From Ruegeria arenilitoris (GTDB lineage: Bacteria; Pseudomonadota; Alphaproteobacteria; Rhodobacterales; Rhodobacteraceae), in assembly GCF_013030985.1 (NCBI RefSeq), contig NZ_WPYP01000007.1:1-64000 (forward strand): DNA of 64,000 bases. The letters are read 5' to 3'. The notes under the pieces are model-generated. The model had not been told where the DNA came from. It searched no databases and saw only the letters and a program-made list of their open reading frames with translations. Positions 49,446 to 64,000 of the stretch are shown here, piece after piece; within the stretch, counting starts at the first letter, position 1, and every line of letters begins with the position of its first letter. A program made the translations under genes and the position numbers.

Positions 49446-49569
49446 GCGTTGCTGAGCTCAGTAGTTTTGCCTCACCAAATCACTGCAGTTCAAAATCAGA
49501 GCCCTAAGAGAAAACACCGCCATACGACCAGCGCGGCAGGCAAACGCGAAGCATGCTAAACTTGAAAAA

Positions 49570-49588
49570 TGGTGCCCGGGGGCGGAAT
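49570..49588 (-). other. tRNA 3'-end attachment-site remnant (attachment half-site)
   Basis: Read on the minus strand, 49588-49570 is ATTCCGCCCCCGGGCACCA. It splits exactly as the last T-loop bases, a 5-base T-stem strand CCGCC, a 7-base acceptor strand CCCGGGC, the discriminator A and CCA, followed by a T-run. The rest of a tRNA is absent upstream, so this is a duplicated 3' end, as left by site-specific integration. From memory it matches the roseobacter tRNA-Phe 3' end; that identity is less certain. The integrase gene starts 107 bases away. Confidence 0.75.
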
Positions 49589-49694
49589 ATGCGACTATAT
49601 AGCAAACGAAATAAGTCATTGATTAAAAACACTTTTGAGGCTACTCGCTAAAACAAGGCGCAGCATTCTGTGTAGCAAATTGTGGAGCGTAAAT

Positions 49695-51050
49695 TTGACA
49701 CGAAAAGCGAACAAAAACCCACCGAATATGTGCCAACGTGGTGGAATATGGCACCTGCGCATGCGTGTGCCGAAACGATACGCTTACATCGAAGAAAAGA
49801 AGGAAGTTCATCGGAGTCTGTTTACCGGGGATCAGAACGAAGCCCAGGCACGCCTTCCTCTTGTGAAAAAGAAAATCTTGGCTGAACTGGATGCGCGTCT
49901 CGTCGGCAGGTCACCGGAAAAGAGTAGTCACTATGAAGCTATAGCAGAACTATCAACGTCTCGCTCATTTTCATACCGAACCGCTGATGAGCTTGTCGCG
50001 TCAGGTGCCGAAACAATAATGGATCGAATGATAAGCCTGATATCACACAATGACACTCCAACTTCTGAAGCGGCCACCTCCTTGTTGGGCGGAGTTGAGA
50101 GGCAAAAGCTGACCATCACGGAAGTTGCGGCATCCATGGAGACACGCTTCCCGGAAGACGTAGTCAATAAAGCCCATAGGGCCAAGAAATCTTGGTGTGC
50201 GCAATGGACACGCCCAGCTTCAAAGGTTGTCGAGCTGCTTGGGCATGACCCGATCTTTCAGGAAATTCTACGGCAAGACGCTGTCGCCCTCAGAGACGCG
50301 CTGAAAGATCGAGTTCTCGAAGGCGATATGAAGGGGAGGTCGGCACAGAAAGAGCTTCGGCTGCTGAATACCCTTTGGGATCGGTTTCATGATTCAATTG
50401 GAGTTGATGAGCGAGAAATGCCCCACTCCCCCTTCTACAATCTGGGGAAAGGCTTTGCAAAATTGGACGATGAAGACAGCCGAAAACTCGAGGTGCCGAC
50501 CGAAATCATCAGTCAAAAAATGATTGCACCGGACGCACTACATTTCATGAACGACGAACTAAGAGACATCACACTTGTGATCGTGGAAACGGGCGCCCGC
50601 CAATCGGAAATCACGGATTTGCCCCCTCATTCAATTTTTCTGAATGCCTCCATACCTCACATCTGGATAAGAAAAGAAACCGGTGAGTGGGCAAGAGAGA
50701 TAAAAAACAAACCAAGCAAGAGAAAAATCCCTTTGGTTGGAGTGGCGCTCGAAGCATTCCTTAGGCACCCTGAAGGTTTCCCAAGATACCGTTACAAGGG
50801 AACTTATTCTGCAGCTGCGAACAAGGCATTGCACGCCCACAAGATTTTGCCCGATGACATTACCGTTGTGGGGCTTCGCCACAGCTTCGAAACCCGCATG
50901 ATAAATGCAGGCATTCCAAATGACGAGCGTGCCGCATTGATGGGTCATTCCATTAAGAAAGCCCGTGGCCGCGAAGAATACGGGGACAAAATGCCACTGG
51001 AGAAAAAAGTGCTCTATCACAAGAAAATCATGGTCAAGCCGCCAGCTTGA
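49695..51050 (+). CDS. Tyrosine recombinase (integrase) of the element
   Basis: This roughly 451-residue phage-type integrase has an N-terminal arm (CQRGGIWHLRMRVPKRYAYIEEKKEVHRSL), a core-binding region, and a catalytic domain. The catalytic residues seen are Arg in ETGARQSEI, Arg in VVGLRHSFETRM, His in LMGHSIKKARGREEY and the nucleophile Tyr in REEYGDK. The first His of the usual HxxR box appears replaced by Val. TTG 49695 has GGAG seven bases upstream; ATG 49728 is the alternative. Its place beside the tRNA-like half-site makes it the likely integrase for this insertion. Confidence 0.88.
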   Translation: MTRKANKNPPNMCQRGGIWHLRMRVPKRYAYIEEKKEVHRSLFTGDQNEAQARLPLVKKKILAELDARLVGRSPEKSSHYEAIAELSTSRSFSYRTADELVASGAETIMDRMISLISHNDTPTSEAATSLLGGVERQKLTITEVAASMETRFPEDVVNKAHRAKKSWCAQWTRPASKVVELLGHDPIFQEILRQDAVALRDALKDRVLEGDMKGRSAQKELRLLNTLWDRFHDSIGVDEREMPHSPFYNLGKGFAKLDDEDSRKLEVPTEIISQKMIAPDALHFMNDELRDITLVIVETGARQSEITDLPPHSIFLNASIPHIWIRKETGEWAREIKNKPSKRKIPLVGVALEAFLRHPEGFPRYRYKGTYSAAANKALHAHKILPDDITVVGLRHSFETRMINAGIPNDERAALMGHSIKKARGREEYGDKMPLEKKVLYHKKIMVKPPA

Positions 51051-52259: not shown

Positions 52260-53048
52260 TTACCTTTCTTCATCAAATACGAAGTCCTGAATCTCTTTTT
52301 GCAGTCTGTTGGCAGAGCGTGAAAACAAATGCCCTGACCTGGCTGCCAGACGCTCTGCGCCTTTGACAAGACGCGCGGCTTTTCGCGCGTCAGCGGCAAT
52401 TTTCTCACGATCCTGAATGAGTCCGTAGACTTCAGGTTCCAATCGGTCTTTCGTTGTTGTTTTCTTGCGTTCCGGTCGTTGAACATCAATTCCCAGTTCA
52501 TCACGCAAATACTCAAACCAGGCATCTTGAAGTGCGCTTCCCTGAGCACGTCTGTCATCTCTACCGAAGCGCCGCTTTGCTTCCGCTTTCGTAAATTTCG
52601 AGACACTTGCACGCATCGCGGTTCGTCCGTCTTTGTAGGTGCGCTCGTATGTCGGCATCGCAAAAACATCGACGACATGTCTGCCAGCTTCGTCTCTATC
52701 AATTCTGGCTGCAAAGACAGCACGACCACCATGGAATTTATTCACGAACTGAACGGCGTGGATAAGCATCTTGTATTGCCCGTGTTCGTCCGCTTTCACT
52801 AATTCGGTTGGAAACTGGCACAGCACATGAAGAGCAGCCGTTTGCCCTTGCTGTGCAACATTTGACATGTGAACTTCACGCGCAGACTTCAGATCCAGAG
52901 TATTCCAGACGAGTGGTGCTTCATCGCGGATGCTGCGTTGTCTACCGCTACGATCTGTTCTGTTACCGTGCCGCTCCATCGCTGCAAAGTCAGGCCACTT
53001 CAAGGCGACCTGTCTGATCGCACCGACATATCCTTTTTTGTTTGTCAT
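52260..53048 (-). CDS. Mob/Pre-like plasmid mobilization relaxase
   Basis: This 262-residue protein has the motif RIDRDEAGRHVVDVFAMP, similar to the MobV/Pre relaxase core in which an acidic pair and a His precede a hydrophobic strand and Pro. RTAMRASVSKFTKAEAKRRFGRDDRR and ALQDAWFEYLRDELGIDVQRP follow, like the 'lq..f...' region of Mob/Pre proteins. The C-terminus is highly charged and helical. MobV relaxases nick oriT for transfer. The core His motif is not canonical (no HxDExxPH), so the assignment is moderate. The downstream coupled gene and upstream intergenic inverted repeats fit a mobilization region. Confidence 0.6.
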   Translation of the reverse strand: MTNKKGYVGAIRQVALKWPDFAAMERHGNRTDRSGRQRSIRDEAPLVWNTLDLKSAREVHMSNVAQQGQTAALHVLCQFPTELVKADEHGQYKMLIHAVQFVNKFHGGRAVFAARIDRDEAGRHVVDVFAMPTYERTYKDGRTAMRASVSKFTKAEAKRRFGRDDRRAQGSALQDAWFEYLRDELGIDVQRPERKKTTTKDRLEPEVYGLIQDREKIAADARKAARLVKGAERLAARSGHLFSRSANRLQKEIQDFVFDEER

Positions 53049-53205
53049 ATGATGCAGGTAGGGCCTTCGTGCGGATTTTGAAAAAATTGGTTAACCCGCT
53101 AACCCTTTTTTAGAAAAAAAGGCGGCCCCTCCGGGGGTGGGGAGTAGTATCGATAGGCTTCAACCGCGACTATGTCGGTCCGTTCCAAACGAAATCAATC
53201 CGATG
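53049..53205. other. Intergenic inverted repeats, candidate terminator/oriT region
   Basis: Between the relaxase start and the replication-gene stop lie three compact elements: GGTTA/TAACC around 53090-53105; an 8-bp stem CCTTTTTT/AAAAAAGG (53104-53111 with 53115-53122); and a GC-rich CCCC-TCC-GGGG at about 53126-53136. One may be the terminator of the leftward replication gene. The location just upstream of a relaxase gene also makes this the best candidate for an oriT. No known nick consensus could be recognised. Confidence 0.35.
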
Positions 53206-53970
53206 TCAGCGTGTTTCCTGGGGCAGCGGTTCAACAGCCCACCGAAGAGATCCTGGAGGCTGTTTCAGGAACTGCCCGTCGGGCCACTCGGTCTTTTTGT
53301 GACGCATTCTGATAACGACATCAGTGTAGCCCGGGCGCGATCCACCTTGAACAAGCAGCACGGTGAACGAGATACCCGTCACGTTTGACCAATTTTGAAG
53401 CGACGGACCCAACTGTCGTTTGATTTCGTTGGGTATGAGGTTGGGCATCACTGCATCAGGGTCGATTTCGAAATCTTTGTTCGGCGCTATCAGGCTAAAT
53501 GCCGGTTTGCGTTTCTTTCGATGCAAAGCAATCTGCGCTAAAAGCGCGCCATCGAACTTTCGCTTACAGTGACCAATCTCACTCGCGTCGATAAGCGCAT
53601 AAACTTCCATGTCGGACATAATGTGGAAGAAAACTTCGGTAAATCTCCACGTGAGAAAGCGGCCATTTTCGGAGATCTGCAGGTTATCGAAGAATTCAGG
53701 CATCGTAGCCAATTCAAAAACTGGCTTCCTCAAGAAACGGCTTGATCCGGTTTTGGCCGGAAAACACAGCTCCCTTAGTTGATTAACAAAAACAAAGTGT
53801 TCTGTCGGCTTCTCGCCTTCCAACAAGATGGTTGGCCAAGACTCTGCCGTCTCATTTTGGAGAAAAATCAGCGCAAATAGAAGCTTTGCCGTCGTTGCGG
53901 AAAACTGGTGCATTTTGATTATCTCGGCAGCATAGGCGGAGATACGGAATTTCTGGTTAGGTGATTGCAA
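53206..53970 (-). CDS. Probable plasmid replication initiation protein
   Basis: This 254-residue protein starts with TTG at 53970, supported by AGGAG eight bases upstream. It has FRISAYAAEIIKMHQFSATTAKLLFALIFLQN, a helical N-terminal region; LRELCFPAKTGSSRFLRKPVFELATMPEFFDNLQI; and a second unit KFDGALLAQIALHRKKRKPAFSLIAPNKDF. Such two-part winged-helix-like layouts occur in iteron-binding Rep proteins. Sequence alone is weak. The stronger evidence is the series of 21-bp-spaced repeats directly upstream. Another DNA-binding role remains possible. Confidence 0.5.
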   Translation of the reverse strand: MQSPNQKFRISAYAAEIIKMHQFSATTAKLLFALIFLQNETAESWPTILLEGEKPTEHFVFVNQLRELCFPAKTGSSRFLRKPVFELATMPEFFDNLQISENGRFLTWRFTEVFFHIMSDMEVYALIDASEIGHCKRKFDGALLAQIALHRKKRKPAFSLIAPNKDFEIDPDAVMPNLIPNEIKRQLGPSLQNWSNVTGISFTVLLVQGGSRPGYTDVVIRMRHKKTEWPDGQFLKQPPGSLRWAVEPLPQETR

Positions 53971-54613: not shown

Positions 54614-56473
54614 CTATTCCTCGAAATAGGCCAGCTTTGAAATACTGGGGTGACCAACGACAATCGCTCGATCGAGCAACATGTTTGACATTTCACAGCT
54701 TGTTTCAGGCAAGAGCGAGCAGGCGTGGCAAGCGGCTAAGTTCAGGGAATTCAGGCCTTGTCCAGCACTCTCGATACAAAGCGGATCGGACGAACAATAT
54801 CTTCCGTTCTCCAATGCTGCAGCGACCGTTGAAGGTAGGTACTCAGGTCGACCTTGTCGAACAAGGCCTCCAAGTGTTCCTTCCGAGTCCCCACTGGCTG
54901 TATAGAGCAACACACCAGCCATGCCATCGGGCCCATCCGATGCATAGATGCGCTCACATATGCTGGAACTGTCATAACCGGAGTCGAAGGCAAGTTGCCT
55001 GATGAGGAGATGAGCGAAAGTGTGCAGTAGTACCTTGGTCACACCTCCTTCCAAATCAACCCGAGCCATTCCTGCTTCAATCGCATTGTGGGCAATACGC
55101 AGCTGCTCAAATCGTTCCTGCACCGTCTCACTCGACGCCCATTCATCAAGCCGGCTTTTCCGAAGCCGCAGAAAAATGCCTTCACCGCGAACTGAAACAC
55201 CCGGTAGCCATTCTGGTCTTCCAAGAGACAATGGGGCGAGGTCATTCTCATTTGCGCCTGGCGGAAGCAATCGGGTGAATCCTTGCAAGACACGTGTTTC
55301 TCTGAGACGTGTTACAAGAGCAACCTCCTCAAAGTGATCGTCAAACCAAGTGCCATAATCCCTTAGCTGTACCGGGCGGAGGTCAAAGTCTTCCCTGTCC
55401 CTGGGCGAAGGTCTTGGACCAGTGAACGCATCATATTCGGCTCGGCGAAAGGCATTTTCCGTTACCACGGTTTTGGCCGATGTTCCGTCCTTAAGTGCCA
55501 GCGCACCTTTCAGGAGTTCATCCGGTTCAACGCCGTTCTTCTTAGCCAGATACTCTAAGGTTGGTTGTGGCGGATCCGGTAGAAGCGCTTCGAGGATGTT
55601 GTATACCCCCTTGTCAGACAACACCTTCATGACACGTTGAGAATGGGGCGGGATGAGGATTGATTTTGCCACTTTGGCGAAATACGCGTTTGAAGCACCG
55701 CGTTGGATAGTTTGCATTGCGCTGTGTTGGCAGGACTCTGCGCTGCCGGGGCCAAGCCATGGTCTCTCACCTGGGCAACCTTCACTCAAGGTGTCAGCCA
55801 ACACCCCGCGATTGAAGGCTCCAACCATAGACCGCTGTTCCCCACAAGTACGACAAACGATACGGATACCAGCGGTGCCAGGTTGGGTTGTTGATGTAAA
55901 ATAGAGTTCCGCTGCTCCTTCAGAACAGTTGTGACCTCGGTGAACCCATCGTTCCCACGGGAAATCAAAAATGTGACCACTTTCACAGGCGACTACGAAG
56001 CGAACGGGTATCAACCGTGGCCGCCCGTACTTTTGCAATTCCCCACAGGTCTTGCCCCGTCCTCCCGCAAGTCGCTCCTTGTTGCTGCATCGCATATTTT
56101 CGTCTTTTGATTGGGTATTCCAATCAAGTTCCTTCATCCGCCGACAACGCGGGCAATAGTGCCAGCGCGGAAATCGAACAAATGGCATAGGTGCGCGGTC
56201 TTCCTGGGGTGCCATACCTCGCGCGTTAGATTCATGCGCAAGCGATGGTGTGTAGAAGTGGGAAATTCTACGCCCCATTTCGGCGCTCAACCGTTGTGCC
56301 AAGCGACTGTCCACAACTTTCGTCGATCTCTCCAGGTCCAGAGCGGTACCGGGTTGCGCCACGGGCCAAGCATCGAGGCCCGCCATCATCAGCGTGTCAT
56401 CAAGAAAATCAACGATTGCACCGACACCGAACGGGACAATCCCTTGGGATGTTCTGAATTCATTCTTGGCCAT
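54614..56473 (-). CDS. drmB: DrmB-like DUF1998 protein
   Basis: This 619-residue protein has N-terminal NEFRTSQGIVPFGVGAIVDF, several Cys pairs suited to zinc binding (HYCPRCRRM; RIVCRTCGEQRSM) and the C-terminal DUF1998 region: LLHTFAHLLIRQLAFDSGYDSSSICERIY, GVLLYTASGDSEGTLGGL, CSSDPLC and NLAACHACSLLPETSCEMSN. This is the DrmB pattern of DISARM anti-phage systems. There DrmB partners the DrmA helicase and senses or loads onto foreign DNA. ATG 56473 begins one base after the drmA-like stop, so translation is coupled. It is the last gene of the operon. The drmC position downstream is occupied by a transposase scar. Confidence 0.8.
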   Translation of the reverse strand: MAKNEFRTSQGIVPFGVGAIVDFLDDTLMMAGLDAWPVAQPGTALDLERSTKVVDSRLAQRLSAEMGRRISHFYTPSLAHESNARGMAPQEDRAPMPFVRFPRWHYCPRCRRMKELDWNTQSKDENMRCSNKERLAGGRGKTCGELQKYGRPRLIPVRFVVACESGHIFDFPWERWVHRGHNCSEGAAELYFTSTTQPGTAGIRIVCRTCGEQRSMVGAFNRGVLADTLSEGCPGERPWLGPGSAESCQHSAMQTIQRGASNAYFAKVAKSILIPPHSQRVMKVLSDKGVYNILEALLPDPPQPTLEYLAKKNGVEPDELLKGALALKDGTSAKTVVTENAFRRAEYDAFTGPRPSPRDREDFDLRPVQLRDYGTWFDDHFEEVALVTRLRETRVLQGFTRLLPPGANENDLAPLSLGRPEWLPGVSVRGEGIFLRLRKSRLDEWASSETVQERFEQLRIAHNAIEAGMARVDLEGGVTKVLLHTFAHLLIRQLAFDSGYDSSSICERIYASDGPDGMAGVLLYTASGDSEGTLGGLVRQGRPEYLPSTVAAALENGRYCSSDPLCIESAGQGLNSLNLAACHACSLLPETSCEMSNMLLDRAIVVGHPSISKLAYFEE

Positions 56474-56474
56474 T

Positions 56475-59400
56475 TTACTTATCCGGCTCCGGGTAAATCG
56501 AAAGAATGCTGGCCGAACTGCTACCGTCCACATTCCGCATGGATGTCATCACCGGCCAAGCGTCCTTCAGCAACTCATCATCTGATGTCCCGCCGAAAGG
56601 GTACATCAATGACGCTTCTTCAACGTTTCCGGCCATTTTTCCCCAGGCTGACGGGGAACGTTTGCGCCAGAGCTCTCTCCACTCCTCCAATTGATCTTTA
56701 GAATCCTCAAATTCGTCTTCGTTGATGTCTCGGATTCGACTGAGGACCCAATTCAGCTCATCATCCAGTTTTGATGCCTTGGCTGCGTTCAAGATGTCTT
56801 TTGGGTTGCTGAAACCGCACAAATGTCTCGCTACAGCAACCAAAAGGCCCCGCATCCCGCGGCTACGAGCTTGCGGTGAAAAGGGTGTCACACTGGTCGG
56901 CTCGACGTGACGATAGAGGCTTTGGTGGTACCCGACGAAACGCTCGTAGTGGGACCGATCTCGGTTCTTTGTCTGAGTATACGCAACGACGACCAATCCA
57001 GGATATTTGCGACCAACCCGTGAGGTGGCTTGGATGTATTCCGACGTTCCTTTTGGCTGGCCGTTCACGAGCATGAGACCGAGCCGGTCGATATCAACAC
57101 CAACCGCAATCATATTGGTTGCGAGCAGAATATCCACCGGGGCAGGGTTCCGCTGACCTCGACGCCAATCGATTGCAAGCTGATCGAGAATTTCCGGAAT
57201 CTCTTCAGCTTTGCGGCGGCTGGTCAGTTCTGCGGGCTCATCGAGCATTCGTCGGTTTTCAGGAGGAATGTTCTCGAGACCGCACAGCTGTTTTAAGTAT
57301 TCCGGGATGTCGCCAGCACACAGGGTTGCTGCATGGCCGAGCTCGCGCAGCGTATTGAAATACCAAACCAAGGTTCCGTAGGGATTGAGATGTTCGGCCG
57401 TCTTTTCGTCGTTGGGATCAAAACGGTTGGGGAACTGCAGTAGTGGTCCTGTAACACGCACCAAAGCTGTTTGGTGCGAGGAAAGAGCGCTTCCGAGAAA
57501 GCCAATGTAAAGACGCCCTGGGGCATCGTCATTTTGCTGAGCAAAGTAACTATCGTTGGCTTGGTTGCCCTGCGGGGGATATTCGAAAGCTTCGCGATTA
57601 TAAAGCGCACTGCATTGGTCGGCCGCTCGTCTGATCGTAGCGGTTGAAGCGACAATTTTCGGAGGGATGCCATCACGGGAACATAGCTTGTCGATTAGCG
57701 TCTCGTATAGGCCCACCATTGTACCAAGCGGCCCAGAAATGAGATGAAGCTCATCCTGGATGATTAGTGAAGGTGCGACGCCATCATCACCGCCAAAGAG
57801 GTTGTGGGTACGATCCTCCCAAGCAAGTTGCGCGAACTTGTCCACGGTACCAATGACCAGAGTGGGCGGGGCGTCATAGATGTCGTCGTCGATTACCAGA
57901 ATAGGCAAGTGTTCGGAGTGAAACTCACACCCCGGTTCGGGGCAGTGAAAGCGAACTGTCTTTTCCCCACCGTGATTGTTTTCTTGCCGGTAACCTTGGA
58001 ATTTGTTCTCAGTGAGATCAGTCCTACACCATGGACAGTGTAGTATTTGGAACGGGTTTGATTGATACGGCTTTGTTTTCAGGCTTCTTAGCTTTGCGCA
58101 TGCATCACTCCTGCGGTTGGGAGTTAAGCTCGTACCCACCCACATTCCGATGGTGATTGGTTCATCGCCCAAGTCTATGCCCATCGCGCTTTCCCGCCGT
58201 AATTGCTCCAGTGCAAAAATCAGAGCGGAAGCTCGATCAAATTGTTGGCGCGTTAGAAGGCGAAGAGTGTAACGCATCAAGACAGCCGTTCCGCCACCCT
58301 CGTTTCTTAGGCGCCGCATTAGAATACTGAACGCAGCCAGACCTAAATATGCCTCGGTCTTGCCGCCGCCAGTCGGAAACCAAATCAGCTCGACCAGTTT
58401 CCGATCGGAGTGATCAGGGTCGCTGGCTGAGGCCAGGTTCATCAAGATGAAGCCAAGTTGGAATGCGCGCCACTTGTTCTCCATGCCGTCGCCAACCTGG
58501 CTGACCTCCTCACTACCAAGCTTACGTGGTTTCAGGCGGGAACGCTGCTGCTGCGTGAACATGGCACGGTTCATCAAGCGGAACGCGACCATTGCGTCTT
58601 TGTCCGTGCGCAGCAGCTCTATTCCTTGACGCATTCGACGCAGGCAGATTTCACACTTTGATAAGTTGCCTTGTGATGCCGAGCGCAAATGACTTGGAAT
58701 GGCTTCGCGTGCCAGATCATCAATCCAAGCCGCATAGTCTTCTACAAGTCCCGAAAGAACATTCAAAATGGCTGTTTCTGGATCTGCCGACTCGTCGCCA
58801 GCGTAAAGAAATCCCATGGAAAGATTGAAGGCAGAACCGTCTCGATAGTGTTTTGACCTCGGTTCGACAGGTTGTACTTCGTATTGAGGAAGGGCTGCCG
58901 TACGTATCAGATTGCACCGACCGTCCTCGGAGGGGATTGAATTTCGATTCCAGTCTGCGGCTACCCCGTGTCCCAATGCAAATGAGCGGCGATGCCGATA
59001 CAGTAGTTCGAGCTGATCCAACTCGTCTTCTCGCACCCCTCCATCCAGGCGATCTATCGATTCAAATACCGGTTCGTCATCTGCTGAACTCACTTCGAGT
59101 CCAACCTGGAAAAAGCAGGCGTCATACCTCGCGGATCGTTCACCACAGGTTCTTTTGTTGACCAGCATTGCCGATACGACTGAATTGCCGTCGTTCTCTC
59201 GTATGATCAGCTCAAATGAGAGTTCTCCTCGCAGTGTGGGCACCCTTACGGGATCCAACACACCGAATTGGTTTGTTTGGATCTTGACCAACTCGTCGAT
59301 TGGCTCTCTGATATAGCGCTGACGGTGGGCCCTCTCAGGATCTGGTTCTGAACTATATGTAGCTGCACGAATTCTGCAGATTAACTCAGTTCCCGACTTA

Positions 59401-59750
59401 ACTCTAAAGGTCAGGCCCATGGCAGCTGGGCGGAACTCATTCGCGAGGTTCAAGGGTTCTGTAACATCTGACGAGCGATCTGTTCTGTCTGTTTCAGAGC
59501 CGCCAGCCGCCGATGTACTGGAATCTGATATGTCCCCGTCAACAAGAGGAGCGGTATCATCACTTTCGGCAACATCCATTTCGGCCATCAAGATACGTTG
59601 AGGGAACAAGACTCCAGTTGCATAGAGTTGCAACGGATTAAGACGGATTGAGTTGGAATCCATAGGATCCAGCGGGCCAAAGAGTTTGGTCTGCAGGTCC
59701 TCAACCATTGCAGCACGCATCTCCCTGAAATCGTTCGGTAAGGTGCTCAT
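56475..59750 (-). CDS. drmA: DrmA-like superfamily 2 helicase
   Basis: This 1091-residue helicase has Walker A PTGGGKTE (residues 459-466, Lys464), Walker B DELH (666-669), motif III ASTATIRR (701-708), motif V TNMIAVGVDIDRL (about 878-890) and motif VI QATSRVGR (907-914). A Cys-x2-Cys at 572-575 and Cys-x4-Cys at 603-608 form a zinc-ribbon-like insert before motif II. A long N-terminal region of about 400 residues precedes the motor. The size, DELH box and linkage to a DUF1998 gene fit DrmA of DISARM. GAGGA lies six bases before the ATG, two bases after the preceding stop. Confidence 0.8.
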   Translation of the reverse strand: MSTLPNDFREMRAAMVEDLQTKLFGPLDPMDSNSIRLNPLQLYATGVLFPQRILMAEMDVAESDDTAPLVDGDISDSSTSAAGGSETDRTDRSSDVTEPLNLANEFRPAAMGLTFRVKSGTELICRIRAATYSSEPDPERAHRQRYIREPIDELVKIQTNQFGVLDPVRVPTLRGELSFELIIRENDGNSVVSAMLVNKRTCGERSARYDACFFQVGLEVSSADDEPVFESIDRLDGGVREDELDQLELLYRHRRSFALGHGVAADWNRNSIPSEDGRCNLIRTAALPQYEVQPVEPRSKHYRDGSAFNLSMGFLYAGDESADPETAILNVLSGLVEDYAAWIDDLAREAIPSHLRSASQGNLSKCEICLRRMRQGIELLRTDKDAMVAFRLMNRAMFTQQQRSRLKPRKLGSEEVSQVGDGMENKWRAFQLGFILMNLASASDPDHSDRKLVELIWFPTGGGKTEAYLGLAAFSILMRRLRNEGGGTAVLMRYTLRLLTRQQFDRASALIFALEQLRRESAMGIDLGDEPITIGMWVGTSLTPNRRSDACAKLRSLKTKPYQSNPFQILHCPWCRTDLTENKFQGYRQENNHGGEKTVRFHCPEPGCEFHSEHLPILVIDDDIYDAPPTLVIGTVDKFAQLAWEDRTHNLFGGDDGVAPSLIIQDELHLISGPLGTMVGLYETLIDKLCSRDGIPPKIVASTATIRRAADQCSALYNREAFEYPPQGNQANDSYFAQQNDDAPGRLYIGFLGSALSSHQTALVRVTGPLLQFPNRFDPNDEKTAEHLNPYGTLVWYFNTLRELGHAATLCAGDIPEYLKQLCGLENIPPENRRMLDEPAELTSRRKAEEIPEILDQLAIDWRRGQRNPAPVDILLATNMIAVGVDIDRLGLMLVNGQPKGTSEYIQATSRVGRKYPGLVVVAYTQTKNRDRSHYERFVGYHQSLYRHVEPTSVTPFSPQARSRGMRGLLVAVARHLCGFSNPKDILNAAKASKLDDELNWVLSRIRDINEDEFEDSKDQLEEWRELWRKRSPSAWGKMAGNVEEASLMYPFGGTSDDELLKDAWPVMTSMRNVDGSSSASILSIYPEPDK

Positions 59751-59752
59751 GT

Positions 59753-61498
59753 TTAGTCCTCAATGTTCTTTTGAGATTTCAGCATCTCAATTGCTCGCCA
59801 CTGAATGAACGCGTTAGAAACAATGGCGTAGCATTTCGTACGCGTACGTGTGAGTGCAACGAGCAAAAGGCTGTTCTGCCATTCATTTTCGAGGATATCT
59901 GGAACATCGGTGACGATTACGATCTCTGATTCCAGTCCCTTGAATGCTGCAATGCCAGTGGAAAGTATCTGTTGCCTATCAGGTTGAACCTCTCGAGGCG
60001 CAACCAATGGCTTGCCAACGTTTGGTGGAAAGCGATCCACAAGCCGCTGCCCAGCCCTTCGCCATGACAGTATCGCAATGTCCCCAGGACAAACGCCGTC
60101 GCGGATCAATTCTACAAGAAGAGCGCGCAGTTTGGCGGCAGCCTCCTTGTCGGTTGTAGCGCCGATATACTTCACGGGCGAATTGAGCTGACGACGGCAT
60201 TCCGGCGCGTCCGCCTTCGAAAAAAAGTAGGCTTCGGTAGAAGTCTTCGGAGGATTTCTGAAGTTCTCCCTCAATTCAACTGATACCGCTCCGGCCTCTA
60301 CGAGGGCGTCGAAAGCTTGTTTTTCAAAGCGTGAATAAACGTTTGCCTGATCGCCTTGGTCTAAGAAGATTGCCCAGCGCCCCTTCAGGCCGCCGCTGAG
60401 GATCAACGTCAGACAAGCAAGATTTCTTTCGTTTAGAATATCCTGGGCTTCATCCAAAATCACCGCGTCATACTGCGGGAGCTCGCCAGTCTCCAATAGG
60501 ATCTCACAAGCGTCTTCAAAAAGTGCTGGGTAGCCCCTTAAGAAGTGCTCTTCTTCTGAGGTTCCGATGGGAACCGCCGGTGACAACCCAGCACGTCGGA
60601 TGATGTCATGCATGAACTTATGGAGCGTCGCAATCTTGAATTTTGAGTCGCCACGTTCCACCGAGAGATGGGCGGCGAGTTCAGTATTGAAGCAAAGGTA
60701 GAGTACCTTCTGTCGTTCTTCAGAAATCCGACGGGCGGATTCCAACGCCAGAACAGTTTTGCCTGTTCCTGGTCCTCCGGCACAAATCAGTCTCGGGTTT
60801 TGTGGGCTCAAAACAAGGTCGAGTACTCGAAATTGCTCCCTGCTAAGAACAGGCGCCTCACGTTGACTTTCGATCACGAGCCCCAAAACCGTCAACCCGG
60901 TTTCAAAGTCGGCTCGCATAGCGTCAGCACAAGTTCGCAGCTTTTCCGAGGTGAGAGGAAAGGTGGTTCTTCCACCCTTCTCTTTTCGCTTGCGCTCGAA
61001 GTATGCCTCCAATCGTTTCAGGTATGCCGAAAACGGGTTCTTCTGATCGCGGAGGTCATATATTACGTCTTGGCTCCATTCCGCGTCCTGGTATTCGAAA
61101 ATGACCGAAGGCAGGATCACTCCCCAACCGAAAAGGGCTTCCTTGCGAGAAAGCACTCGCTGTTCTTGAAGGTGTTTCAAGACTGCCCAGCGACAACCCT
61201 CGGCTTGTTTGAACGGCCCCTCGGTGGTGGTGTACGAACGCTCCCCCGACCCAATCGTCCAAATCCCATTTTTTCGCTGAATTGCCCCCCCTTTAACCTC
61301 AAGGCAAAACACTCCACGCGGGCTCATCAATACGAAATCGCATTCGGCATGTTCCTTGGTGCCATGTCTCTCTAATCCGACTGATTGGAAGCAGTATACT
61401 TCCTCCTTAGTCTTCATATCTCTGATTTCGTTGAAAATATTCTGCTCAGTAAAGGTAGCGCTCGGGCTGCAAATAGGAGGTATCATATGAACGGTCAT
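59753..61498 (-). CDS. NERD nuclease-UvrD-like helicase fusion
   Basis: This 581-residue protein joins an N-terminal NERD (nuclease-related) domain to a superfamily 1 helicase. The nuclease-like core shows Asp54, Glu67 and Lys69 (ECDFVLMSPRGVFCLEVKGG, the PD-(D/E)xK arrangement). The helicase has Walker A GGPGTGKT (241-248), DEAQD (349-353), QGDQANVYSRFE-like QANVYSRF, and LVALTRTRTKCYAIVS near the C-terminus. It could cut and unwind invading DNA. It overlaps the DrmE-like gene by four bases and precedes drmA by two. It is not one of the named DISARM core components, which makes its operon place notable. Confidence 0.82.
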   Translation of the reverse strand: MTVHMIPPICSPSATFTEQNIFNEIRDMKTKEEVYCFQSVGLERHGTKEHAECDFVLMSPRGVFCLEVKGGAIQRKNGIWTIGSGERSYTTTEGPFKQAEGCRWAVLKHLQEQRVLSRKEALFGWGVILPSVIFEYQDAEWSQDVIYDLRDQKNPFSAYLKRLEAYFERKRKEKGGRTTFPLTSEKLRTCADAMRADFETGLTVLGLVIESQREAPVLSREQFRVLDLVLSPQNPRLICAGGPGTGKTVLALESARRISEERQKVLYLCFNTELAAHLSVERGDSKFKIATLHKFMHDIIRRAGLSPAVPIGTSEEEHFLRGYPALFEDACEILLETGELPQYDAVILDEAQDILNERNLACLTLILSGGLKGRWAIFLDQGDQANVYSRFEKQAFDALVEAGAVSVELRENFRNPPKTSTEAYFFSKADAPECRRQLNSPVKYIGATTDKEAAAKLRALLVELIRDGVCPGDIAILSWRRAGQRLVDRFPPNVGKPLVAPREVQPDRQQILSTGIAAFKGLESEIVIVTDVPDILENEWQNSLLLVALTRTRTKCYAIVSNAFIQWRAIEMLKSQKNIED

Positions 61499-63975
61499 GA
61501 CAATCTCGCTGCTGCATTGTGATCAAGTCGTTGCCGTTGCCACAGAAGCGAACCCACGCAAGTCGCAACCTTACCAACGAATTCCACACGATGGATATTG
61601 AGGTCGACGCAAGTGTTCCCCACTTCGATGCGCAATTTGCCTGTTGTTTGGTTAGCCGTTCCTCTTACAAGTTGCTCAAAAATGTGATCCGCAGCTTCAT
61701 GACGAGCTCGATACAGAGCTGAAACGGCTTGCACCGAAGCCTCACCGGATTTTTGAATTTCCGTATCGTCTGAGAGGGCGCAAATTTTTGGAATAACTTC
61801 TCGATAATTCATTGGCGCGACAGTTTGCCCGTTGATCCAGTTTCGATACGCCATATCCGATCGCTGCAACCCAGCAGCAGCCAACCGCTTGCGAAAGTTA
61901 CTCCAAGGAACAGACCCGGCGGCATAAGCTCTCTTCAGAGGTTGCCGCCAAAGATCGGCCATATTCAATGTATTTTTGGGGTCTCGCAAATAGTTTGGAG
62001 CAAGTTCTTGGAACAGCTCTCGGTGAGAGCCGTCCTTAAGCACAAAAATATCACCTTCCCGCAATTGGCTGACAGGTATGCAGGCATCTTCTGGTCGTGA
62101 GGCATCTCTATTCAAGAGAACCAGGTCAGCATGAGGCGGCAAGAACACGTAAGCTGAATAGTCGTCGAGAATGACAGGAGTTCCACTGACCTTTGAGTCG
62201 CCCCCGGAGTTAACGGTTCGATAGATACGTTCGAACAATCCATCAAGGTCGGGGCGCTTCTCTGTCGGCGGGATAAACTCTGATAAATCCTCGCTTAGTG
62301 TAGCTTTACCTCTCTTCGGGCTGGGCCACACCAACTGCTCGACTGCCCCGCTGGGCTCACGCCCTTCATTTGAGTGTTCCATAGGCGTGCTGAAAGAACG
62401 GACACGCCTACGCACCCCGTCCGTTACTCTGTCGAACCATTCTTCTTGAAAGTCGAACATAAGGTAGGTCAATTTTATTGCGGGAACGATTGTATCGAGC
62501 CGGCGCATTGTTTCCGCACCGTGCCAGCCGGGAACAACCAAATGTTCCACGGGCGCAACGCGAAATAGTTCTGGCGCGGTAAGACCCGCACCGTGGAGAC
62601 CGTTCCCGTTCAGCAGGGCTGTAGTTTCTTGCGCTTCCTGATGGGATCGGCAGAGGATTGTAACTGGCTTGCCCTCCTTAGCGATCCTTTCACCAAAGAT
62701 ATCAGGGGAGAATTCGCCATTCTCGGCGAGCTCGTCGAGTGCGTTTGCGACTCCAATCAAGGATTGATCATAAAGCGCTTCAGCCTTAGCAGCCTTCGAA
62801 AGAGCCAAGGCTCGTTCCCGTATTTTAGCAGACGCGGAGCTACCCGGGCGCGGCATCCTCCCCGCATCGGAAAGGAAGTTTCTTAATTGCGGCACAATAG
62901 GAGTGAAGTCATCTTCCGGATCATCATGTTGATCTTGCAAGAACCGGTTGATTATAGCCAACGCCGGGTTGGGAATTACCTGAACGCTTCGATCAACGAT
63001 CCAATGATTGTATTGTCGCTTCAATCCGCGCGCCAAAGGATCAATTTGCCTGAAACCTCGTGGTTTCAAAGACCACGGCAGAACTACGTCGTCCTCCATG
63101 ATCAGGGCATCTCGGGGCGGACCAGGTACTTCGGAGATATCCGCTAAACAAAGCATCCGCAGATTTGGAATCTCTCGACCGACGAATTCAGCATTGATCT
63201 CGCGATAGGTCATCGAACCGAAGGCAATCAAATCGAATGCGATCACTCCCGCAGGGGGATTCTCAATCAGGTTTCTTGCAACCATCGCGGACCCGCACGC
63301 GTAGATCATCGCCCGATCAATAACGCTTTGCGTCATGGGTTCTTCGCGCTCGGTTCCGCTTATCCAAGTGGCACCGACTACCTTCGAAATTGCGTCACCG
63401 CGACAATGCAGGGAAGGCAAATAGTTTTCCAGTAAGTTGCGTGGAGCTACGACAAGTACGGCACGCCGGGCATCGCTACGAGGCCGCCCTTTTAGAAGAA
63501 AATGTAATGGGTCGATAGAATGGTGTTGCTGCCACGCTGAAACGACAGAACCGTTCGACAAGGTTTTGTAGTCTTGCCGAGGAGATACCTCCATGCAGTT
63601 CACCAGGTTATCAGGCAGGTATAGCCGGCCAGATGAACTCACTTCCACAACGATCTTTTCTTCACCTGCGATGACTTGTCGCCCTAAGTATCGCACACGC
63701 TCCGGACGCTGGCCGAAGTTTAGCAGATTGAGGATTGTACCCTCTTGCCATCTTCCATTCGTACCGGTCTGTGCATTTTCTCGCATTGCGGCAAGTGTGA
63801 CTGCCCCGACTACAGGTGCGAGAAAGACTTCTGCGTCTCGCAGAGTAATATGGTCGTTTTGCGAGCTTTCAAGCACAGCTTGTGCATTTCCGACGACATA
63901 CTGGCCGAAGCGATCCAGCATCATTCCGCCTGCTGTGAGATATGAGCTTTCCAAATGGGGAATTCGTTGCTGCAA
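61495..63975 (-). CDS. DrmE-like large protein of the defence operon (start uncertain)
   Basis: This 826-residue soluble protein resembles DrmE of class 2 DISARM in size, operon place and C-terminal style: SVPWSNFRKRLAAAGLQRSDMAYRNWINGQTVAPMNYREVIPKI, an HTH-like unit. An N-terminal region contains AVLVVAPRNLLENYLPSLHC, resembling a degenerate helicase strand-loop; no Walker motif is clear. The frame stays open to the window edge, so the true start may lie beyond 64000. TTG 63975 and ATG 63924 (MMLDRFGQ, after GGCGGA) are in-frame options. It overlaps the NERD-UvrD gene by four bases. Family assignment is inference from context and partial motif resemblance. Confidence 0.6.
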   Translation of the reverse strand: MQQRIPHLESSYLTAGGMMLDRFGQYVVGNAQAVLESSQNDHITLRDAEVFLAPVVGAVTLAAMRENAQTGTNGRWQEGTILNLLNFGQRPERVRYLGRQVIAGEEKIVVEVSSSGRLYLPDNLVNCMEVSPRQDYKTLSNGSVVSAWQQHHSIDPLHFLLKGRPRSDARRAVLVVAPRNLLENYLPSLHCRGDAISKVVGATWISGTEREEPMTQSVIDRAMIYACGSAMVARNLIENPPAGVIAFDLIAFGSMTYREINAEFVGREIPNLRMLCLADISEVPGPPRDALIMEDDVVLPWSLKPRGFRQIDPLARGLKRQYNHWIVDRSVQVIPNPALAIINRFLQDQHDDPEDDFTPIVPQLRNFLSDAGRMPRPGSSASAKIRERALALSKAAKAEALYDQSLIGVANALDELAENGEFSPDIFGERIAKEGKPVTILCRSHQEAQETTALLNGNGLHGAGLTAPELFRVAPVEHLVVPGWHGAETMRRLDTIVPAIKLTYLMFDFQEEWFDRVTDGVRRRVRSFSTPMEHSNEGREPSGAVEQLVWPSPKRGKATLSEDLSEFIPPTEKRPDLDGLFERIYRTVNSGGDSKVSGTPVILDDYSAYVFLPPHADLVLLNRDASRPEDACIPVSQLREGDIFVLKDGSHRELFQELAPNYLRDPKNTLNMADLWRQPLKRAYAAGSVPWSNFRKRLAAAGLQRSDMAYRNWINGQTVAPMNYREVIPKICALSDDTEIQKSGEASVQAVSALYRARHEAADHIFEQLVRGTANQTTGKLRIEVGNTCVDLNIHRVEFVGKVATCVGSLLWQRQRLDHNAAARLS

Positions 63976-64000
63976 GCTACTTAAATGGGGAAGGCCATAT

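Follow-up and report, generated by a model that had tools for sequence, protein, structure and literature searches.

A DISARM-type operon with a DrmE-like protein and a NERD nuclease-UvrD helicase fusion on a putative tRNA-integrated island

The operon described here is read, with moderate confidence and from sequence comparison, as an antiphage system of the DISARM type on a mobile island, class-2-like in its composition, in which DrmE, a NERD nuclease-UvrD-type helicase fusion (NERD-UvrD), DrmA and DrmB would form a co-inherited core accompanied by an exchangeable 5-cytosine methyltransferase. In this class-2-like variant, the NERD-UvrD protein probably takes the place of DrmC.

Composition of the operon and of the element that carries it

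The window, that is the whole stretch of DNA analysed, belongs to a 290-kb contig, of which it makes up the first 64 kb. Between 54614 and 64000, the listing of open reading frames gives four long frames on the minus strand, in a gene order that recurs elsewhere. These are a divergent drmE (61495 to 64000 and on to contig position 64740; 1081 aa; NF038316 below cut-off), the NERD nuclease-UvrD-type helicase fusion (59753-61498; 581 aa; PF08378 and SLFN-g3/AAA_19 helicase domains), a short form of drmA (56475-59750; 1091 aa; NF038325 and PADLOC DrmA) and drmB, encoding a DUF1998/MZB protein (54614-56473; 619 aa; NF038324 and PF09369 MZB). The drmE-like and NERD-UvrD genes overlap by 4 bases (61495-61498), 2 bases (59751-59752) separate NERD-UvrD from drmA, and a 1-base gap separates drmA from drmB when drmB starts at the ATG at 56473; the start chosen by the ORF lister, which lies further upstream at 56533, would make drmB overlap drmA. 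The overlap and gaps reported in the first-pass annotation are thus correct, the last one for the ATG at 56473. By contrast, the boundary it gave to the drmE-like gene, 63975, is an internal TTG of the longer frame.

The proposal that DrmA and DrmB represent the DISARM core was upheld by the HMM searches, as both proteins score above the curated NCBIfam cut-offs, DrmB by a wide interval (NF038324, 481 bits for a cut-off of 240) and DrmA narrowly (NF038325, 955.6 bits for a cut-off of 950). DrmA also matches the PADLOC DrmA model with an E-value of 3e-223. The DrmA helicase and DrmB are encoded by separate adjacent genes, which is what DISARM in the broad sense requires. The DrmE-like protein gave a weaker signal, with 36-37 bits against NF038316 DrmE_fam (cut-off 80, E 1e-9). 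Its homologues at the same place of the operon match the DrmE family with E-values down to 8e-181, and all 28 proteins submitted to hmmscan, out of 32, match NCBIfam DrmE_fam at E<=0.001, some of them under the cut-off. The presence of a DrmE-like protein is therefore borne out by a weak profile match in the window and by stronger ones in relatives at the same place.

No methyltransferase had been seen in the first reading of this DNA. This is true of the window, which ends before the gene, and not of the contig, where a 5-cytosine methyltransferase with the motifs PCQ, ENV and QRR is encoded at 65142-66326 on the plus strand (TIGR00675, 166 bits, cut-off 100.65), starting 401 bp from drmE on the opposite strand. 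A Vsr endonuclease (contig 66372-66803, plus strand; TIGR00632, 133.5 bits, cut-off 97.85) and a NOV_C protein (contig 66945-67775, L002:12946-13776, plus strand; PF13020, 83.5 bits) are encoded downstream. In PADLOC, the NOV_C protein has a close counterpart in PDC-S36, a candidate defence family (425.8 bits). Extension of the contig past 64000, where the remaining DISARM genes were suspected to lie, yielded a methyltransferase and no drmC. The flank holds no complete standard DISARM set, which would have made the operon an ordinary one, since drmC is missing; nor were DrmD and DrmMI found beside the operon with the PADLOC models and the locus annotation.

The operon sits on what looks like a tRNA-integrated island, as judged from a repeat, an integrase gene and a drop in GC content. 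Two perfect 24-bp copies of the 3' end of a tRNA-Phe gene lie at 49565-49588 and at contig 68027-68050, the right one covering the 3' end of the tRNA-Phe gene itself (contig 68032-68106, minus strand), and they delimit a low-GC element of 18,486 bp that carries the operon. A tyrosine-type integrase gene (49635-51050, plus strand; PF00589, 30.1 bits, cut-off 27.1; phrog_1 integrase) begins just after the left copy. Within the window, the GC content is 0.604 to the left of this repeat and 0.513 to its right. Two other frames of the island, of 262 and 254 aa, are located between the integrase gene and drmB (52260-53970); on inspection by eye, they are reminiscent of proteins for mobilisation and replication, and searches in PADLOC, Pfam, NCBIfam and PHROGs gave no convincing match.

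Recurrence and joint inheritance of the core

In a class-level scan of 289 genomes, two besides the window's own were found to encode the DrmE-like protein, and in both of these two a divergent methyltransferase gene is followed by the genes for DrmE, NERD-UvrD, DrmA and DrmB. A DrmA scan with one genome per species, using search patterns derived from three sequences, provided 80 loci; these are the best 80 of 579 confirmed, so that the sample favours relatives of the window DrmA. With the window, the two first relatives and 14 loci from 398 genomes of the phylum, 97 loci were annotated, some of them ending at contig ends, and the three in which no DrmA was called (L063, L064 and L066) were dropped, leaving 94. 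Class 2 DISARM was described from a Bacillus system, which falls outside the sampled loci.

DrmE is present in 32 of these 94 DrmA loci (best 80 of 579 included) and separates into two branches. In the window's branch, the order DrmE-NERD-UvrD-DrmA-DrmB is found in 21 of 22 loci from this sample of the best 80 of 579, the exception being L015. The other branch consists of 10 loci, 9 of them from Bacillota, and NERD-UvrD is there encoded after DrmB in 7 (again with the best 80 of 579 included), the others being L037, L048 and L062. Only these four of the 32 DrmE loci (L015, L037, L048 and L062) are devoid of an adjacent NERD-UvrD gene. Over the whole set of 94, best 80 of 579 included, NERD-UvrD adjoins DrmAB in 50 loci. 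The synteny that the first-pass annotation had suggested checking was thus found in other genomes, which indicates that the arrangement is not due to chance.

On a quickly built DrmA tree of 88 rows, which carries SH-aLRT support only and a long-branch warning and omits 6 loci whose DrmA is short or weak, the DrmE-NERD-A-B order falls in a group of 26 rows (SH-aLRT 97) with Pseudomonadota, Myxococcota, Bacteroidota, Bacillota and Verrucomicrobiota. Five of the 26 rows do not show this order: L015 (Planctomycetota), which has DrmE without NERD-UvrD; L013, which has full flanks and neither NERD-UvrD nor DrmE; and L049, L054 and L069, located at contig ends. DrmE changes state twice on this tree and NERD-UvrD 11 times, so that NERD-UvrD must have been gained, lost or moved more than once.

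Co-divergence was measured on 16 loci, obtained from 20 by removing four near-copies, L041 not being used. Distances between the core proteins are strongly correlated (DrmA-DrmB 0.97, DrmA-NERD-UvrD 0.93, NERD-UvrD-DrmE 0.92 and DrmA-DrmE 0.88), and none of 2000 permutations gave values as high. The methyltransferase, compared in 15 loci, follows the core weakly, with correlations of 0.32 to DrmA, 0.29 to NERD-UvrD and 0.20 to DrmE. The 20-locus version had given 0.66-0.69 for the methyltransferase, a value inflated by the near-copies, and the 16-locus values are used instead. As far as sequence divergence can tell, the core proteins are inherited together and the methyltransferase is largely exchanged.

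The operon had been proposed to be a methylation-independent variant. This was abandoned as the main reading because a 5-cytosine methyltransferase gene flanks the operon and because one lies within the examined stretch of 30 of the 32 DrmE loci (best 80 of 579 included), the exceptions being L020, which has full flanks, and L041, an incomplete locus. A version of this proposal still has to be weighed, namely that the core works independently of methylation and that the methyltransferase, Vsr and NOV_C belong to a separate restriction-modification-like module on the same island. The methyltransferase gene lies on the strand opposite to the core, in an apparent unit with those for Vsr and NOV_C; its product matches PADLOC DrmMII with an E-value of 8e-54, and the best PADLOC models for it are the general type II ones (E 4e-89); L020 has DrmE and no methyltransferase; and the weak tracking of the core leaves room for such a module. 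We nevertheless consider this explanation rather unlikely, since the methyltransferase is found in nearly all DrmE loci, is divergent from drmE in the two first relatives too, and has a correlation that still exceeds most permutations (12, 22 and 86 of 2000 are as high for DrmA, NERD-UvrD and DrmE, respectively). Vsr is less regular, being found in 19 of the 32 DrmE loci (best 80 of 579 included). In a related locus of genome G160 (L008:557-5363), two large proteins encoded beside the methyltransferase match phage families that have no assigned function, phrog_8137 and phrog_7659; one of the two starts, by eye, like a GHKL ATPase.

The NERD-UvrD protein and its alternation with DrmC

The third protein had been described as a NERD nuclease-UvrD helicase fusion encoded between the drmE-like and drmA genes, and the profiles agree: a NERD domain (PF08378, 40.3 bits, cut-off 22.1) is joined to SF1/UvrD-type helicase domains, and the protein matches the PADLOC models RTasNERD-Hel (E 5e-22) and C3a187 NERD+UvrD (E 1e-16). 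Among proteins of solved structure, those nearest to it in sequence are helicases (HelD, UPF1, Schlafen 11, GajB and UvrD/PcrA, for example), and the matches listed fall in its helicase part. Active-site residues were compared in 28 proteins chosen from a cluster of 62, in which a filter on motif and length set aside 19 members as having no NERD; of the 28, 25 match Pfam NERD. None of the 28 deviates at D54, E67 and K69, which make up the D..ExK nuclease signature, at the residues of Walker A and Walker B, in the KGxE motif or at R551. As a regular member of the operon, the protein could supply nuclease activity, in line with the suggestion of the first-pass annotation.

DrmC was not found at the locus or in its flank with the PADLOC models and the cluster annotation, so that the absence of drmC noted in the window extends beyond 64000. 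In the whole genome, one PADLOC DrmC model gave a single weak match (29.7 bits), to a 492-aa frame on another contig (C1:654541). Since this model finds matches in 9 of 14 control genomes too, the frame is probably an ordinary PLD-family protein.

Among the 94 DrmA loci, best 80 of 579 included, 12 have a DrmC-like gene, 9 of these together with DrmMI; the 12 include three distant relatives (L122-L124) with matches of just 24-26 bits. No locus of this same sample (best 80 of 579 included) has both a DrmC-like gene and NERD-UvrD (Fisher p 4e-5, only indicative because the loci are related), and none of its 32 DrmE loci, 28 of which have NERD-UvrD, has a DrmC-like gene. It should be noted that the search for DrmC relied on an HKD motif and on a profile built from six proteins of class 1, both of which a divergent DrmC could escape; with these, DrmC was not found in L116 and L117, where DrmMI is present. 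On the DrmA tree, the nine stronger DrmC loci lie on one side of a branch with SH-aLRT 97, and next to them are two loci that have DrmMI and gave no DrmC.

In another explanation, the nuclease would be a PLD protein acting in trans, along the lines suggested for class 1, and NERD-UvrD an accessory or self-protective (repair) protein. The recruitment of alternative PLD nucleases is indeed proposed in the excerpted text of PMC9142583, and the genome contains the weak DrmC match mentioned above and a PLD-like frame of 336 aa with an HxK-type stretch recognised by eye (contig 78731-79741, L003:4832-5842, near a tRNA-Thr gene). This frame has no family match in Pfam, NCBIfam or PADLOC, the DrmC model is unspecific in the control genomes, and the DrmE loci combine a regular NERD-UvrD, its nuclease residues invariant, with the absence of DrmC-like genes, making this explanation improbable.

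The association was also followed in samples that were not ranked by likeness to the window DrmA. In a set of 398 genomes from the phylum, DrmA is present in 15 (E<=1e-30) and a NERD-UvrD relative in 7 (E<=1e-8); DrmA is adjacent in 4 of these 7, for 0.26 co-occurrences expected under independence, and no DrmA match was found in the other 3. When the window's genome is omitted, 3 of 6 have an adjacent DrmA (hypergeometric p 7e-4). In 72,556 plasmids, the matches listed include DrmA in 56 and a NERD-UvrD relative in 22, 10 of which have DrmA within about 2 kb (one pair spans the record start and several are near-copies) and 12 of which have no DrmA among the matches listed. The DrmE-like protein gave no match in plasmids, and of 105 stretches of viral contigs that fit the NERD-UvrD pattern none was confirmed. 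In the existing annotation of 6 plasmid loci, 4 have only the label 'helicase-related protein' beside 'DUF1998 domain-containing protein'. That NERD-UvrD stands alone as an Nhi-type single-gene defence and just happens to neighbour DrmAB, as its relatives without DrmA in genomes and plasmids and the similar fusions that PADLOC has in other contexts might suggest, is very improbable in view of the 4-base overlap with drmE, the co-divergence with DrmA and DrmE, and the PADLOC Nhi model, which covers only residues 218-296, a short helicase stretch (E 2.7e-7).

DrmE, known systems and a possible mechanism

A PDB sequence search with a DrmE profile gave nothing convincing, the best hit being a designed protein (E 0.0074). 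AlphaFold2 models of the window DrmE (mean pLDDT 75.6, pTM 0.58) and of a Bacteroidota relative (mean pLDDT 77.1, pTM 0.56), which are of moderate confidence and not fully independent because their alignments share sequences, both resemble SF2 helicases. With Foldseek, the window model has 4 matches at E<=0.001, with low TM-scores, the best being an MDA5-LGP2 filament (E 1.6e-4), and the Bacteroidota model has 55, including MDA5, Dicer, XPB and Hef. On second comparison, residues 267-794 of the window model superimpose on RIG-I (6gpg; Z 13.7, rmsd 4.3, 305 residues aligned), and the Bacteroidota model on DinG (8zef; Z 12.8, rmsd 4.2, 295 aligned) and RecQ (4q47; Z 12.1, rmsd 3.8, 287 aligned). 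The match lists of both models contain no specific DrmE homologue of known function. The GxxxxGK[ST] motif is missing from 30 of the 32 DrmE proteins, a looser pattern matches 5 of the 32, and the single DExx pattern tried matches none. The models and the missing motifs suggest that DrmE is probably a helicase-like, ATPase-dead subunit. A fold can thus be predicted for a protein to which the cited literature, in the excerpts available, assigns no function. The motif is present in two very long DrmE-related proteins (L020:3044-8221 and L118:1313-6691; 1.7-1.8 kaa), whose P-loop is close to the N terminus; they may have arisen by fusion of an ATPase with a DrmE-like protein.

DISARM type 2 is composed of DrmA, DrmB, DrmC, DrmE and DrmMII, as given in a figure legend of PMC9252829. 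The operon shares with it DrmA and DrmB, as well as a relative of DrmE and, close by, a 5-cytosine methyltransferase; it differs in the lack of DrmC, in NERD-UvrD encoded between DrmE and DrmA, in a DrmE under the family cut-off and in a methyltransferase nearest to general type II models. Since DrmC is lacking, the operon is described as a class-2-like variant and not filed under type 2. With class 1 (DrmD, DrmMI, DrmA, DrmB and DrmC) it shares separate genes for DrmA and DrmB, whereas DrmD, DrmMI and DrmC are all missing and, on the DrmA tree, loci with DrmC are grouped separately. Nhi, a single-gene nuclease-helicase (PMC12904381, in part), likewise has nuclease and helicase in one protein, but the fusion here belongs to a four-gene unit and does not match the Nhi profile over its full extent. 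The YprA-family systems, including TALON, which also has a NERD nuclease (PMC12458937, from the excerpted description), share a YprA-family helicase; TALON combines an ARMADA-like YprA helicase with the NERD nuclease and with TPR-CSD and TBP genes. Here, the helicase and the DUF1998 protein are separate DISARM-type genes, and NERD forms one protein with a UvrD-type helicase. According to excerpts of the same source, the PLD protein DrmC is a typical component of DISARM; the legend of its Figure 1 mentions many uncharacterized DISARM-like classes. NERD contexts named in partial texts are Mokosh type I, Nhi-like systems, PglW and Dnd (PMC10952713, PMC12839542 and PMC10853773). No description of NERD-UvrD in DISARM was found among the matches listed in openly licensed papers.

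A possible mechanism can be drawn. The methyltransferase would mark host DNA, and DrmAB would load on unmarked phage DNA with exposed 5' single strands and then translocate. As an SF2-like subunit whose ATPase motifs have been lost, DrmE might act as a scaffold or sensor. NERD-UvrD would then unwind and cut the captured DNA, the role proposed for DrmC elsewhere. According to excerpts of PMC9142583, DrmAB binds ssDNA and 5'-overhang DNA and is autoinhibited by a loop, DrmC does not co-purify, is dispensable and is often missing, and the way DISARM degrades DNA is called a mystery. A 2026 review (PMC12904381, in part) places DISARM among systems restricting by unknown mechanisms, yet its Table 1 says 'DNA cleavage'. 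From its position in the operon, its co-divergence, the conservation of its active site and its alternation with DrmC, we infer that NERD-UvrD may be the degrading effector; the alternation in the examined loci makes it a concrete candidate for the destruction of DNA by DISARM. Such a probable swap of DrmC for a nuclease-helicase is seen in several bacterial phyla, and a definition requiring DrmC would exclude these loci from type 2. More broadly, and as a tentative proposal, DrmAB might work with two effector types, DrmC in class 1 and NERD-UvrD, as the missing degrader, in a wider set; within the latter, the DrmE-branch core would use a DrmE of SF2 helicase fold with lost ATPase as a structural sensor, and the interchangeable methyltransferase would provide self/non-self specificity.

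Other compositions around DrmAB were also observed. In seven loci (L022, L025, L033, L034, L046, L055 and L086), drmA is preceded by genes for a large protein (about 1.5-1.8 kaa) and for a UvrD helicase resembling GajB, which by sequence is another DrmAB composition; the large protein of L022 matches TmtA models. In five Actinomycetota loci (L023, L026, L032, L038 and L050), DrmA and DrmB are followed by members of two protein clusters, an arrangement that looks like DrmAB coupled with an MZA-like set, and the members in L023 match PADLOC MzaA/MzaB and MzaE.
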